Assembly (NCBI GenBank): GCA_029212615.1
Contig: JARGPJ010000010.1
Location: forward strand, 1-64,000
Length of the DNA stretch: 64,000 bases
Direction: 5' to 3'
From: Verrucomicrobiales bacterium
GTDB taxonomy: Bacteria; Verrucomicrobiota; Verrucomicrobiia; Verrucomicrobiales; DEV007
The notes under the pieces were generated by a model that did no database searches, was not told the origin of the DNA, and was given only the letters and a program-made list of their open reading frames with translations. Below, piece after piece: positions 5,570 through 31,887 of this stretch. Made by a program: the position numbers and the translations under genes. How positions within the stretch are numbered: the stretch's first letter is position 1; the number at the start of each line of letters is the position of its first letter.

Positions 5570-6412
5570 ATGCTCGATTCCAAACCGATTTTCTTCGACA
5601 GCCACATGCACACCCCTCTCTGCAAGCATGCAGAGGGACATCCTGTCGAATACATGGAGCGTGGCGTTGAAAAGGGGCTGGCGGGAATCATCATGACCTG
5701 CCACAGCCCGATGCCTGACCGCTTCTCTCACCGCGTCAGAATGTCACCGGAACAGTTCAACGAGTACCTCGCAATCGTTCAGGAAGCCGCCGATGCAGCA
5801 CCGGAAGGATTCGAAGTTCGCCTCGGGATGGAAAGCGACTTCTTTCCGGGCATGGAAAAGTGGCTCGCGGAACTTCACTCAAAAGCTGACTTCCACTACA
5901 TTCTGGGATCCGTTCATTGGCACATCCCTGAATATCTCGACGCTTTCTGGCGCGGAGACCCGGTCGCCTTTCGACGTCAGTATTTTGAGCACCTCGCGGA
6001 ATCAGCCGAGTCGGGACTTTTCGATTCTCTTGCTCATCCCGACCTCGTCAAAAATGCGAGTCCCGATGATTGGGAATTTGAATCGATGAGGTCGGTCATC
6101 GGCGCCGCACTCGACCGGATCGCCAAAACCGGTGTCGCAATGGAGCTCAATACCTCCGGCATGAATAAAGCCTACCCCGAAATGAATCCGGGCCCGAAAA
6201 TGCTTCGAATGATCGCTGAACGGGATATCCCCGTGGTGATTGGCTCAGACTCACACACCCCGCTTCGAGTTGCCGATCAGTTCCCGAAAGCGCTTGAGCA
6301 ATTAACCAAGGCAGGATTCGAAACGGTAAGCGTCTTCAAAAAGAGACGTCGCCTCGACTATCCGATCCCGCTTGTTCAGGAAAGCCTCGCGACGCAAGGC
6401 TCGGCATTTTAA
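5570..6412 (+). CDS. PHP-domain phosphatase, histidinol-phosphatase family
   Basis: The 280-aa protein is a complete PHP-domain metallophosphoesterase of the HisK/HisJ type. It begins with DSHMHTPLCKHAEGHP (metal-binding His pair). Other metal-site motifs are MTCHSPMP near residue 44, RLGMESDFFPG near 84, ILGSVHWH near 107, SLAHPDL near 157 and a C-terminal VIGSDSHTP. In known members it hydrolyses L-histidinol phosphate. No other his gene is in the window, so a different phosphate ester is possible. The start lies 48 nt after the aldo/keto reductase. Its stop overlaps by 4 nt the stop of the convergent RRE-like gene. Confidence 0.82.
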   Translation: MLDSKPIFFDSHMHTPLCKHAEGHPVEYMERGVEKGLAGIIMTCHSPMPDRFSHRVRMSPEQFNEYLAIVQEAADAAPEGFEVRLGMESDFFPGMEKWLAELHSKADFHYILGSVHWHIPEYLDAFWRGDPVAFRRQYFEHLAESAESGLFDSLAHPDLVKNASPDDWEFESMRSVIGAALDRIAKTGVAMELNTSGMNKAYPEMNPGPKMLRMIAERDIPVVIGSDSHTPLRVADQFPKALEQLTKAGFETVSVFKKRRRLDYPIPLVQESLATQGSAF

Positions 6413-7311
6413 TCCAGAAGCGCTTCAACTTCGCCTATCTGACGGACAAGGGTGGTCATCTTCTGAACCTCGTACCGATATCCAACTTCATTGTTCTGGA
6501 TGTAAAATTCGTCACGCCGAACACGACATTCCGCAAGCTCACGACGAAGATCATCGAGATCACTCACTGTCGGGCGGTATGGCTCCGGTGCAGGGATTGG
6601 CTCAGTCACCGCAGGAGCAACTTGTTGAGGAACCGGTGGAGTGTCGTCCTGTGACACGGCCCGTGCACCCAGCTCCATTTCTTCGATCGGCGTATCACGT
6701 GGCTGAACCGAGCGTTCCTCAGCGAGTGGCTTCGCATCCTGATAAAAATACCCCTCAATCGAGGAATACAATAAATTCACCGGCGGTTCAAAAATCGGGG
6801 CGGCCACATACGCGATCCGCAAAACCGCGAGAGAGAGGAGGACCATCGCAGAGATCTTGAGAGCCTTTTTCTGCCAGTCTCCATCGAGGCCCAACTTTTC
6901 AATCAATGACTCCTGAAAACCCTTTTCCTCTTTCGGTTGTACCTCGCGCTTTCGCAACGGAATCGTGACGGATACCTGCGGCTCCTCATCGGTAACCAAC
7001 TCGAAAACAGACTCACACTCGCAAAGGATCAGATTCTCATCGTAAAGCCACTGATAGAAATTAGTGAGCCCAACGGGCGAAAATTGACCACGGTATTTCG
7101 CGTGTACATCGCGGGCAACCGATTCAAAAGTTCGCTCTCCATCAAACTGCCGCATCATCTCATATTGCCACGGGCGTAAAGCAAACTTCTGGCCATCGGA
7201 AATTCGTTCAGCCTGCACTTCTCCATCTCGACGGGAAAATCGCATTCCCTGCCTCGGACGAAGCCGAAGCGGAAAGATCTCCGTCAGATGAGTTGGCGAG
7301 ATGCTATTCAC
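6409..7311 (-). CDS. PqqD/RRE-like membrane-anchored protein, unknown function
   Basis: I cannot assign a function to this 300-aa protein. Residues about 12-95 read like a PqqD-type winged-helix / RiPP recognition element: a run of Arg-rich PRQGMRFSRRDG, then ALRPWQYEMMRQFDGERTFESVARDV and a final helix-strand NFYQWLYDENLILCE. That pattern resembles the N-terminal domain of peptide-modification and peptide-export proteins. A single membrane span is near residues 148-168. After it comes a Pro/Glu-rich linker and a C-terminal amphipathic helix (about 245-300) rich in Arg, Glu and Gln, probably coiled coil. The start is GTG; no ATG lies closer. It is 100 nt downstream of the subtilase and has its own promoter candidate. 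The RRE call is pattern recognition, not a search result. Confidence 0.6.
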   Translation of the reverse strand: MNSISPTHLTEIFPLRLRPRQGMRFSRRDGEVQAERISDGQKFALRPWQYEMMRQFDGERTFESVARDVHAKYRGQFSPVGLTNFYQWLYDENLILCECESVFELVTDEEPQVSVTIPLRKREVQPKEEKGFQESLIEKLGLDGDWQKKALKISAMVLLSLAVLRIAYVAAPIFEPPVNLLYSSIEGYFYQDAKPLAEERSVQPRDTPIEEMELGARAVSQDDTPPVPQQVAPAVTEPIPAPEPYRPTVSDLDDLRRELAECRVRRDEFYIQNNEVGYRYEVQKMTTLVRQIGEVEALLD

Positions 7312-7337
7312 GAATGTTGAATGTTAAGTTTACAGAA

Positions 7338-7365
7338 ATTATAAGTTTATTCTGTAATTAGTCTA
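7338..7365 (-). promoter_or_regulatory. candidate sigma-70 promoter of the RRE-like gene
   Basis: Reading the minus strand, a perfect TATAAT (7338-7343) follows TAGACT (7360-7365; four of six matches to the -35 consensus) with a 16-nt spacer. It lies in a 100-nt AT-rich gap upstream of the GTG start at 7311. This would let the membrane gene be transcribed apart from the peptide/GAF/subtilase operon. Confidence 0.35.
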
Positions 7366-7412
7366 TCAAAAATCGGGAAAGAATTTCTGACGGTGAACGC
7401 CCTGTGATTCCA

Positions 7413-8183
7413 CTATCGAGCCGTGGCGAGAATACTCAGGAGTGGCTTAACCAGCGATGGCTCCATTCCCGGAAAAGCGGAGCGCAAACGGGCGATCCGG
7501 CCGGCGACGAGCGGCGCAGCATAGCTACTTCCCGTCTCAGTCTTTGTTTCCCCGTTGAGCCAGGGCACTTCGACCCTTTCCCCCCTCGCAAAAAAGGAAA
7601 TCATCTCACCCGGTTTGTAGAAAAGCTCATCAGCCTGGCAATCAATCCCTTTCACACTGATCACACTTGGAAAATAGGCCGGCCATTCACGTATCGCAGC
7701 ATTCACATTGCTGGAAGCTGCGACCACCTGAACGCCCGCCAGATAAGCCTCGTCGACCCACTCTTTATAATCCATTGCATAGCGGGCAAGTCCACGGCAG
7801 CCGAAGCTGCAGTTGATGACCTGGTAGCCCCGGCTGATTGCCTGATTAACGCATTCAGCAATGACAAAACTTCGGGCGTGGTTCGAACTGTCGAGAGCCC
7901 TGAAACTTCCAATCGTTGCACCCGGTGCCTCTTTTGAAAGAATACTGGCTACCGCAGTGCCATGCCCATAGACATCGACACCTTCGTTGTCCTCAATTCG
8001 CAAATTGACGCCGTCACACGAGATCGCCACATCATCGGCAAGAGTCATTCCGGATAACGCTGGATGTGTCGTATCGACCCCTGAATCGATCACCGCAACC
8101 TTGATTCCCCCCCCGTCACCCGTCCGGAGGGCCTCGGCTGCCGCGGAAAGTTCCGGCCATCTTAAATCCTGTTCAGCCGGCAT
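7413..8183 (-). CDS. compact S8 (subtilisin-family) serine peptidase
   Basis: This 256-aa subtilase has all catalytic elements: VAVIDSGVD (Asp33), GHGTAVAS (His74), the oxyanion-hole Asn in VVAASSNVN and GSSYAAPLVAG (Ser220). There is no signal peptide and no recognisable prodomain, and the length is near the minimum for a catalytic domain, so it should act in the cytosol without autoprocessing. In that respect it resembles RiPP-type subtilases such as PatA/PatG more than secreted degradative enzymes. The ATG at 8183 lies inside the end of the GAF gene (11-nt overlap), which implies translational coupling. GTG 8186 is an alternative start. The likely substrate is a protein made from the same operon; this is inference. 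Confidence 0.85.
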   Translation of the reverse strand: MPAEQDLRWPELSAAAEALRTGDGGGIKVAVIDSGVDTTHPALSGMTLADDVAISCDGVNLRIEDNEGVDVYGHGTAVASILSKEAPGATIGSFRALDSSNHARSFVIAECVNQAISRGYQVINCSFGCRGLARYAMDYKEWVDEAYLAGVQVVAASSNVNAAIREWPAYFPSVISVKGIDCQADELFYKPGEMISFFARGERVEVPWLNGETKTETGSSYAAPLVAGRIARLRSAFPGMEPSLVKPLLSILATAR

Positions 8184-8775
8184 CACTCAATCCCAGTGCT
8201 GAAGAAAGCAGCGTTTCGTTCACAAGGCGTTCGATAAGGTTGGAAACCAGCGCAAGCGTTTCTATATCGGCGGAACTGAAACCTTTCTTGCCATCCCCGT
8301 TTTCGACCTCTTCGAGCTGGACGCAGGAAATAACCCCTCGAAGCCCGAAGGCGAAATAAAGAGGTACCGCAAGAAGCGCCGTTGTATGCTTCGCCATTTT
8401 ACGATCGAGCGTGTCATCGTGTCCGCTGCTCGTTCCGATATCATTCTCGCAGTATGGCTGCTGCTGGGAGAAGACCATTGAAATGATTCCGGAGCCGATC
8501 GGCTGCTCAAAGCCAATGAGCGCTGAAGCATCCTCGCCGGTATTATAGGTGGCAACGAGGTTTCGCTCCTCACTGTCTGCCAACCAGATAGTGCCTTCAC
8601 ATCCGCCGACACGATCAATGGCTGCGCCCAGTAAAGAGAGCGCGCCTTCATCGAAGAGCTCCACCAAATCGGCAGGGCTACCGCTACTGATCCACGATTC
8701 CAGATGCTCAACGAGATCGCCACTTTGACGATCCAGTTCAGCGTTTCTGAGAAGGCGGGTGCGGGCTCCGATCAT
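8173..8775 (-). CDS. GAF-domain protein
   Basis: The 200-aa protein reads as a single GAF-like sensor domain (about residues 35-190). It has VELFDEGALSLLGAAIDRVGGCEGTIWLADSEERNLVATYNTG in the first half, which is cited here only as a region. The second half has TTALLAVPLYFAFGLRGVISC and SADIETLALVSNLIERLV, the usual GAF end. No kinase, cyclase or DNA-binding domain is attached. Its ATG overlaps the stop of the 73-aa protein by one base (TGATG) and its end overlaps the subtilase start, so the three are almost certainly translated together. A ligand-sensing control of the protease is plausible but not shown. The ligand cannot be predicted. Confidence 0.75.
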   Translation of the reverse strand: MIGARTRLLRNAELDRQSGDLVEHLESWISSGSPADLVELFDEGALSLLGAAIDRVGGCEGTIWLADSEERNLVATYNTGEDASALIGFEQPIGSGIISMVFSQQQPYCENDIGTSSGHDDTLDRKMAKHTTALLAVPLYFAFGLRGVISCVQLEEVENGDGKKGFSSADIETLALVSNLIERLVNETLLSSALGLSDAG

Positions 8776-8996
8776 CAGGAGATCGCCTGGAGCTTATTCA
8801 CGAGCTCATGGAGTGCCGTTTCGTTACCAAGAATCTCAGGAAGGAGATTCTCACGGTCTTCATCAGAAAGATTACCTTGAGCAAATTGCTGGATCATTTC
8901 GATCTGAGTTGCCGAAAGCGGATTGGAAGAATGGCCGGATACTTCAGGGCCTAAATTCTCGAGGAATTGAGCGAGGATTGAAAAGTCGTTATTCAT
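8775..8996 (-). CDS. 73-aa leader-like small protein, unknown function
   Basis: This is the first gene of the peptide/GAF/subtilase operon. The 73-aa product is acidic and helical, with no Cys, no signal peptide and no membrane span. The second half (NLSDEDRENLLPEILGNE, then a helix ending NKLQAIS) resembles leader or anti-sigma-like helices. The tight TGATG junction with the GAF gene argues that it is a real gene despite its size. Possible roles are substrate of the neighbouring subtilase, a partner of the GAF protein, or a recognition peptide for the RRE-like protein. None is proven. No strong Shine-Dalgarno is visible before ATG 8996. Confidence 0.65.
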   Translation of the reverse strand: MNNDFSILAQFLENLGPEVSGHSSNPLSATQIEMIQQFAQGNLSDEDRENLLPEILGNETALHELVNKLQAIS

Positions 8997-9156
8997 GTCA
9001 GTTTTCAGGGGAGAGTTGAATGTTGTTCAGGTAATCGACGCTCCGGGGTGAACCCTTATGCAAAAGCATTCATCTTTCATGAAAATAGTCAGATTTTGCC
9101 CACGAATCGATCAAAATCACCTTAAAAATATTTAAAATTATGGTTTTTATATTGAT

Positions 9157-31182: not shown

Positions 31183-31887
31183 CTACAAATCAAGCCCGGC
31201 GGCGCAAAGCTTCTGGAAATCTTCCCAGTCAATCTGCAGGTCAGCATCCTGCTGCTGAATGAACTGCATCGTCTCGGAAGCAATCTGTGTTCGGGCTGAA
31301 GTCAGCGACCGGCTCACCCGGGTCTGATCGCACCTCCACATTCTCGCGATCAATGTCTGACTGATCCCGTGAAGATAGGAAAGCTTCAGCATGAGCAACA
31401 CATCCGGATCCAGCGAATCAAACGCATGCTTGATTGCCCTCCCCATCAAATCGCTGAGGTCCTCATCAAGGAGCGGCTCATCATCGTTTCCGGCAACCCG
31501 GTCGAAACGGTCACCCGACCTGTCATCATCGTCTTCGTAAGAGGGAAGCTCGCCCCGGAATTTGTCCCGTCGCTTCAAGTCGAGCCACCGATTCCAGGTG
31601 ATTCGAATCATCCAGGTGGAAAGAGAGGAGCGTCCTTCGAATTTCTCCAGCAAAGGGCGGGTCTGCCCCTTCTTCCCTGCTCCGAAGCACTCAGCGATGA
31701 TATCCGCGACTAGATCCTGAGCCTGAGTCCGTTCAACCCCTCTCGACATCATGACCCGCTCCAGCATCGGCTGATATTCCTCCTGAAAGGCAACGACAGA
31801 ATCGTCATCCCCCGCAATCGCTTTATCTACAAGATCGAGATCTTCGGCATGCTTTAGCGGCTTTATTTCTGACGATGGCTGGCTCAT
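31183..31887 (-). CDS. ECF-type RNA polymerase sigma factor
   Basis: The 234-aa protein has sigma-70 region 2 (about 30-95; FQEEYQPMLERV, DLVADIIAECF, STWMIRITWNRWLDLKRRDK). It also has region 4 (about 155-215; LDPDVLLMLKLSYLHGISQTLIARMWRCDQTRVSRSL), a helix-turn-helix. An acidic insert (YEDDDDRSGDR) joins them. No anti-sigma gene lies next to it, which is unusual for ECF factors; many planctomycete and verrucomicrobial ECF sigmas are likewise orphan or kinase-linked. The regulon is unknown. The preceding gap to the ABC ATPase is 81 nt. Confidence 0.88.
   Translation of the reverse strand: MSQPSSEIKPLKHAEDLDLVDKAIAGDDDSVVAFQEEYQPMLERVMMSRGVERTQAQDLVADIIAECFGAGKKGQTRPLLEKFEGRSSLSTWMIRITWNRWLDLKRRDKFRGELPSYEDDDDRSGDRFDRVAGNDDEPLLDEDLSDLMGRAIKHAFDSLDPDVLLMLKLSYLHGISQTLIARMWRCDQTRVSRSLTSARTQIASETMQFIQQQDADLQIDWEDFQKLCAAGLDL

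Follow-up and report, generated by a model that had tools for sequence, protein, structure and literature searches.

The stretch of 64,000 nucleotides (nt) analyzed here (hereafter the window; positions 1 to 64,000 of contig JARGPJ010000010.1, Verrucomicrobiales assembly GCA_029212615.1) carries a compact group of four genes on its minus strand. They encode a protein of 73 amino acids (aa; PEP73, 8775-8996), a 200-aa GAF-domain protein and putative sensor (8173-8775), a 257-aa subtilase of family S8 (SUB, 7413-8186), and a 300-aa membrane protein with the predicted fold of a RiPP recognition element (RRE, 6409-7311; RiPP, ribosomally synthesized and post-translationally modified peptide). The four open reading frames (ORFs) and the TGATG junction between the PEP73 and GAF genes are as claimed in a preliminary description of this DNA. 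Its 11-nt overlap between the GAF and SUB genes and its triad Asp33/His74/Ser220 refer to a start of SUB at ATG, the codon after GTG, because that start yields precisely these values; counted from GTG, the overlap is 14 nt and the triad Asp34/His75/Ser221. A further gene, lying in the window 22 kb from the small genes and beyond the region covered by that description, encodes an extracytoplasmic function (ECF) sigma factor (SIG, 234 aa, 31183-31887, minus strand). We propose, with moderate confidence, that SIG, PEP73, the GAF protein, and SUB form one intracellular sigma-factor switch, in which SUB, controlled by the GAF protein, would cleave PEP73 to free SIG.

The PEP-GAF-SUB set is a conserved unit. 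In the 29 genus loci besides the window, which were picked by their SUB match, the PEP and GAF genes adjoin SUB in every case (29/29), and this arrangement is not due to chance. A SUB search of 56 relatives gave matches at E≤1e-20 in 38 of them, paralogues included. The protease itself is intact, as had been claimed: SUB matches Peptidase_S8 with 92.1 bits (Pfam cut-off 21.8), and D34, H75, N160, and S221 are identical in all 27 aligned subtilases. Neither a signal peptide nor a prodomain is visible in its sequence, which fits the earlier suggestion of a cytosolic enzyme. Its top NCBIfam match is mycosin (105 bits, below the cut-off of 278.75), and it is not a QhpE by model NF049966 (91.6 bits versus a cut-off of 165); SUB thus resembles both in being an S8 peptidase but falls far below either cut-off. 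The GAF protein matches GAF_2 with 32.5 bits (Pfam cut-off 28.6), and its gene adjoins SUB in all seven genomes that have SUB at E≤1e-40 within a sample of 387 genomes of the phylum. We also observed a GAF-subtilase pair in records titled Gemmatimonadaceae and Acidobacteria (L165, L173), which may reflect transfer or misbinned contigs. An anti-phage role, raised previously as a defence switch, was rejected, as PADLOC matched only SUB among the five proteins (generic subtilase, 3.9e-17; IetS, 2.8e-7) and found no other parts of known systems.

The link to SIG emerged from a search of the 387 genomes with a PEP73 profile, which matched four genomes outside the genus at E≤0.001. Three of these matches adjoin an ECF-like gene or sit at most 0.7 kb downstream of one; the fourth (G053, L066) falls within an ORF of 441 aa and was treated as false. 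The sigma gene next to PEP has a single homologue in the window's own genome at E≤0.01, namely SIG. This protein is an ECF sigma factor: it matches TIGR02937 with 62.3 bits (cut-off 42.9), as do 28 of 28 aligned members at E≤0.01, and a profile search of the PDB with SIG returns solved sigma factors (best 5e-12). A scan of a named genome collection, with loci typed by profile HMMs, yielded 73 loci. Fourteen of them, from verrucomicrobial lineages other than that of the window, hold SIG, PEP, GAF, and SUB in this order on one strand, the distance from SIG to PEP being 20-385 nt; their records carry titles such as Spartobacteria, Chthoniobacterales, and Limisphaerales. Two more loci (L161, L168) hold all four parts in other arrangements. 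PEP-GAF-SUB is accompanied by the RRE gene in 21 loci, and in a further two where SIG lies near the locus edge (L117, L119); it stands without the RRE gene in eight. GAF-SUB alone accounts for 25 loci, mostly a paralogue described below as locus II. Within the genus, 27 genomes carry both SIG and SUB; 15 have the two on one contig, always on the same strand and with SIG upstream, at a distance of 9.5-23.0 kb.

Rearranged versions of the system point the same way. In G044 and G350, both of the same taxonomic order as the window, the parts are reshuffled, with SIG-PEP convergent with GAF-SUB in the former; a second copy in G014 has SIG-PEP-GAF convergent with SUB, and in G038 SIG-PEP-GAF stands at the end of a contig. 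Based on the best 6-7 candidates per genome, five of the 387 genomes have SIG and seven have SUB (each at E≤1e-40), and four have both. Three of these four, the window's own genome, G044, and G350, helped to build the SIG profile. The fourth, G406, did not and is in no alignment used; there GAF-SUB and SIG-PEP are adjacent and convergent, with PEP at E 5.8e-4. In G311, again of the window's order, the matches to SIG (7e-25) and GAF (5e-25) fall in a single 466-aa ORF (L188:1477-2877), and between them, as in the operon, is a PEP-like stretch (0.11, by itself not significant). The contig stops 165 nt past this ORF, too early to show whether SUB follows. This fusion, although a single sequence, speaks for physical closeness of SIG and the GAF protein, and together with G406 it lends more weight to the idea of one system, not to the direction of the switch. 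SIG matches between 1e-20 and 1e-40 in G066 and G337 were set aside as other sigma factors, with no PEP, GAF, or SUB in the short loci examined.

These linkage data fit equally well with what we regard as the main rival explanation, in which SUB degrades SIG itself and thereby keeps it off, with PEP73 acting as an adaptor or chaperone and the GAF protein regulating the degradation. A precedent of sorts exists in ECF54, for which, according to PMC8999054, proteolytic control in the absence of an anti-sigma factor has been proposed on account of its gene neighbours. We nonetheless consider degradation of SIG unlikely given the position of the PEP gene, which adjoins SIG wherever SIG is near GAF-SUB (the 14 ordered loci, L161, L168, G044, G014, G350, and G406), and given the occurrence of SIG-PEP without SUB in G173. 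Anti-sigma genes commonly adjoin their sigma gene, so PEP occupies the usual place of an anti-sigma gene.

A promoter motif offers a second line of evidence for the proposed switch. The sequence TGCATAA-N15-CGTC (9037-9062, minus strand) ends 40 nt before the PEP73 start codon and is the only match to TGCATAA-N14-17-CGTC in the window, where shuffled sequences lead one to expect 0.03. CGTC is frequent as the -10 element of ECF promoters, and autoregulation of partner genes is known for ECF sigma factors. Of 30 genus loci, 27 have the pattern [TC]GCATA-N15/16-CGTC in the 150 nt before PEP, against a mean of 0.00 and a maximum of 1 in dinucleotide shuffles, and two of the three remaining loci read TGCATC or TGCATG by eye, with 15 nt between TGCATNA and CGTC. 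No similar pattern precedes GAF (0/29) or SUB (0/29), the upstream regions of which are coding sequence. Among other lineages, L130 and L131 carry the exact motif in the SIG-PEP gap, L132 carries a variant with one base changed in that gap, and L133 has the exact motif before PEP. A wider form of the motif, chosen after reading the distant upstream regions, is found before 13 of 22 distant PEP genes (shuffle mean 0.23, maximum 2), and another wide form before 9 of the 22 (shuffle mean 0.35, maximum 2). The GAF genes of locus II show the strict motif in 0/25 and the wide one in 2/25 of their upstream regions. We infer that SIG reads the [TC]GCATA-N15/16-CGTC promoter. One further site in the window's own genome (C13) lies within an opposite-strand ORF and was treated as a chance match.

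Sites elsewhere in the genus suggest that the same promoter serves other genes. In 33 genus genomes there are 78 sites with the exact pattern TGCATAA-N15-CGTC, versus 50 for the reversed pattern. Nineteen of the 78 are the PEP promoter, and the reading of neighbouring genes was confined to the other 59. Twenty of these 59 precede one of three recurrent gene sets: five head the RiPP-type cluster of locus III, seven precede small Gly-zipper-like lipoproteins, mostly with His/Gly-rich tails (six by tblastn, L281 by eye), and eight precede small secreted proteins of one family (by tblastn; a ninth match to this family, L276, lies away from its site and was left uncounted). Among the remaining 39 are a few pairs of similar genes, and many are probable chance sites. 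As the site count alone is weak, it is the recurrence of the same downstream genes that carries the argument for a regulon, the candidate targets of which comprise secreted proteins rich in His and Gly and a RiPP precursor rich in Cys, His, and Trp.

Locus III (L008:9498-14506, C18 of the same genome) is an MNIO/radical-SAM RiPP-type cluster (MNIO, multinuclear non-heme iron oxidase; SAM, S-adenosylmethionine) and consists of a 53-aa first gene, a GrrM-type radical SAM gene (TIGR04261, 435.5 bits; cut-off 310), a 120-aa precursor-like ORF, an MNIO enzyme gene, and paralogous GAF and subtilase genes, together with a divergent ABC exporter and a FIST-domain gene. The 120-aa ORF, with a C-terminus rich in Cys, Trp, and His, was found in 8 of the 11 regions of locus III type that were examined. 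These regions add up to 191 kb and hold 15 copies of a relaxed motif, eight of which lie upstream of the 53-aa gene and cover all eight regions having that gene; L052, L229, and L230 contain neither this gene nor RiPP enzymes in the sequence examined. Ten regions have a FIST-domain gene, and in four of them the relaxed motif stands a short distance before it (L008:8304-8329, L052, L226, and L227).

PEP73 itself matches nothing in Pfam or NCBIfam at E≤1. In an alignment of 30 genus sequences it is kept along its whole length; a second alignment took in 43 wider sequences, and a near-invariant EV-x-G-[HR] marks the linker following helix 1 (EVSGHS in the window). It is predicted to be all-helical, with a helix at residues 2-14, the linker, and three more helices, at moderate confidence (predicted local distance difference test score, pLDDT, 76). 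Among the 50 Foldseek matches listed, the top probabilities belong to the anti-sigma factors DdvA (0.54) and RslA (0.47 and 0.38), and RskA is also present, all at E>1, so that the likeness is not significant; a profile search likewise gave DdvA at a non-significant E of 0.51. Family searches with the alignments of PEP73 and the 300-aa protein yielded only scattered weak matches, among them GatB_Yqey in 10 of 30 PEP members (best E 0.0086) and the zinc anti-sigma family zf-HC2 in 2 of 30 (best E 0.096). Based on its gene position, we regard PEP73 as a putative anti-sigma or sigma-holding partner. It could alternatively be a stand-alone propeptide or inhibitor of SUB, the sigma factor merely regulating a protease operon: SUB lacks a prodomain, PEP73 has about the size of a propeptide, and its gene stands two steps upstream of SUB in the overlapping set. 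Subtilase propeptides have an alpha/beta fold, however, as opposed to the all-helical prediction for PEP73, and its Pfam matches contain no inhibitor family. With SIG-PEP occurring without SUB in G173, and a PEP-like stretch fused to SIG and GAF in G311, this role seems improbable to us.

In the switch that we favour, PEP73 would act as a small soluble anti-sigma (or sigma-holding) partner that holds SIG, and the GAF protein would sense a cytoplasmic ligand and control the cytosolic SUB. SUB would then cleave PEP73, the best candidate site being the EV-x-G-[HR] linker, and thereby release SIG, which in turn would transcribe the [TC]GCATA-N15/16-CGTC promoters. Its targets would be PEP-GAF-SUB, as a feedback, the MNIO/radical-SAM cluster, and the small secreted His/Gly-rich proteins. 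The protease-based regulatory switch that the preliminary description named among its alternatives is supported. The direction, in which cleavage activates SIG, is modelled by analogy on CalpL-CalpT-CalpS.

Several observations weigh against this interpretation. Binding and cleavage of PEP73 are predictions, its likeness to anti-sigma domains is weak (E>1), and it has no Cys, hence none of the residues that characterize zinc anti-sigma factors. The motif is absent upstream of SIG (0/28), its strict form precedes only 4 of 22 distant PEP genes, and another ECF sigma factor could own the promoter; the excess of 78 sites over 50 is modest, so that many single sites are due to chance. The linkage has gaps too: L165 has SIG about 5 kb from GAF-SUB with no PEP match (1 of the 73 loci), G173 (L100) has SIG and PEP with no GAF-SUB in the 20 kb examined, and, among draft genomes, G013 and G032 have PEP-GAF-SUB with no full SIG match and G015 has it with a SIG match of 51 residues only.

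The fourth gene of the group calls for a separate assessment. The 300-aa protein has no Pfam or NCBIfam family at E≤1, and a PDB sequence search with its alignment returned nothing informative. In the AlphaFold model, its N-terminal domain (about residues 1-105) comprises four strands, three helices, and one strand, with mean pLDDT above 90 for blocks of residues 11-90; long helices around a predicted membrane segment (145-174) and a low-confidence Pro-rich stretch follow, and the protein ends in a conserved, predicted helical hairpin (249-299). This hairpin carries 10 of the 18 invariant residues of the protein. The best 23 Foldseek matches include five RREs (TbiB1, lasso synthetase B1, ThcOx, PqqD, and PbtF), the best being TbiB1 (E 7.7e-3, TMt 0.56-0.66 over its chains), and none reaches E≤0.001. 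The RRE domain on a membrane protein that had been claimed from the letters is thus supported by the predicted structure. The first three Foldseek rows are GdmN (E 6.4e-3), and Rv2067c is also among the top rows; since neither is listed as a RiPP enzyme, the fold alone does not imply work on RiPPs. A search of the genome for the PqqD family gave two matches above cut-off, in unrelated loci (L058 and L059), and none at the window. The gene after the PqqD-domain gene encodes, by eye and in each of those loci (C12 and C3), a P-loop-like protein about 360 aa long.

The RRE gene adjoins SUB in 23 of the 29 other genus loci. It was not found at five where it should be visible (L019, L024, L034, L036, and L047), and in L032, also without it, the sequence breaks off at a contig edge. 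Of the 171 loci with a match to any profile, 51 matched that of the RRE gene, all from the window's genus by record; no RRE gene appeared outside the genus among the loci profile-scanned, a search that did not extend across the phylum. The gene has a separate, housekeeping-type promoter, with a TATAAT -10-like box at 7338-7343 (minus strand) that is at least 85% conserved in 24 aligned upstream regions, and the sigma-type motif is absent there (0/23). As it is restricted to the genus in the scanned loci, missing at five genus loci, and devoid of the sigma-type promoter, the RRE-fold protein is an add-on to the proposed switch and not a core part. Of the four genes grouped in the preliminary description, PEP-GAF-SUB is the part that is conserved as a unit.

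The same evidence bears on the idea, also put forward in the preliminary description, of a RiPP or peptide-signal unit in which PEP73 would be a precursor that the RRE protein binds and SUB cleaves, and that is then exported. The predicted RRE fold speaks for it, as does the paralogous GAF-SUB pair inside the RiPP-type cluster of the same genome. Against it, no modifying enzyme or exporter was seen among the flanking genes, the window as a whole not having been annotated, and the RRE gene has the gaps in occurrence and the lack of a sigma-type promoter just described. PEP73 as a RiPP precursor was rejected because of its conservation over the whole length, its lack of Cys, and its pairing with a sigma factor in other lineages, and we judge such a processing and export unit very improbable. 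RiPP chemistry would instead enter indirectly, through the MNIO/radical-SAM cluster that shares the promoter motif.

The logic of the proposed switch is known, and its parts and their combination are new as far as we are aware; no description of the four-gene system turned up in the open-access literature searched. In CalpL-CalpT-CalpS, a soluble ligand-activated protease cleaves an anti-sigma factor and releases the sigma factor, and the protease is of the Lon-SAVED type, senses cA4, and acts in a CRISPR context (PMC12751052). Our system would resemble it in having a soluble, ligand-controlled protease, an anti-sigma factor, and a released sigma factor, but differs in its protease, which is of family S8 and not Lon-SAVED, and in its separate GAF protein, with cleavage of PEP73 being proposed. 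ECF54 genes neighbour those for a carboxypeptidase, a subtilase, and CHAT (PMC8999054). A subtilase gene near that of an ECF sigma factor is common to both, whereas PEP and GAF are regular partners here, and the comparison is one of gene context and not of group models. Bufferin-type Buf1 MNIO clusters contain sigma genes and an anti-sigma gene (PMC12452194) and likewise tie a sigma/anti-sigma pair to an MNIO RiPP cluster; what links the two in our case is a promoter motif common to both, and the cluster adds a GrrM-type radical SAM enzyme. ECF control by proteolysis is known mainly through membrane-bound anti-sigma factors (PMC8999054 and further abstracts). If our proposal is true, soluble proteolytic control of an ECF sigma factor by a dedicated subtilase and a GAF sensor, scattered over the phylum, would be a new architecture, and might lead to the signal that activates an as yet uncharacterised RiPP cluster of the MNIO/radical-SAM kind. 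As its promoter is defined and its candidate targets are few (the RiPP cluster and the small secreted proteins), the system is directly testable.

Paralogous pairs occur as well, and lineage-specific neighbours give some hints at physiology. In locus II (L007:9563-12204, C7 of the same genome), the gene after a paralogous GAF-subtilase pair encodes a YkuD L,D-transpeptidase in which a signal-like hydrophobic stretch is preceded by about 190 residues; G036 and, by eye, G050 show a similar arrangement. QhpE is the top NCBIfam match of the subtilase paralogues of loci II and III. A CobW/COG0523-like gene follows SUB in 6 of 16 PEP-bearing loci (L151, L153, L154, L156, L158, and L174; Pfam was run on two of the six), and the protein from L151 ends in a His/Cys-rich tail. 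In four of these six, the next gene is an ORF of 631-697 aa; the one scanned, from L153, combines TPR-sensor with nucleotide-cyclase domains. In L130 and L131, an ABC/FtsX transporter takes this place downstream of SUB. These lineage-limited neighbours, like the His/Gly-rich secreted proteins and the RiPP precursor among the candidate targets, are hints of metal or envelope stress. It is conceivable, if rather doubtful, that GAF and compact subtilase make up a portable sensor-protease cassette, placed at a sigma/anti-sigma pair (locus I, in the window), an L,D-transpeptidase with a long N-terminal domain (locus II), and an MNIO/GrrM RiPP cluster (locus III). Its use with the sigma pair would be a small-molecule-gated release by a cytosolic subtilase, akin to a Calp logic outside CRISPR, with metal or envelope protection as output; in one lineage, the ligand might come from the nucleotide-cyclase gene two genes downstream. 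The small genes of the window are flanked by genes for a PHP protein and an aldo/keto reductase and by a long ORF that is SMC-like as judged by eye.

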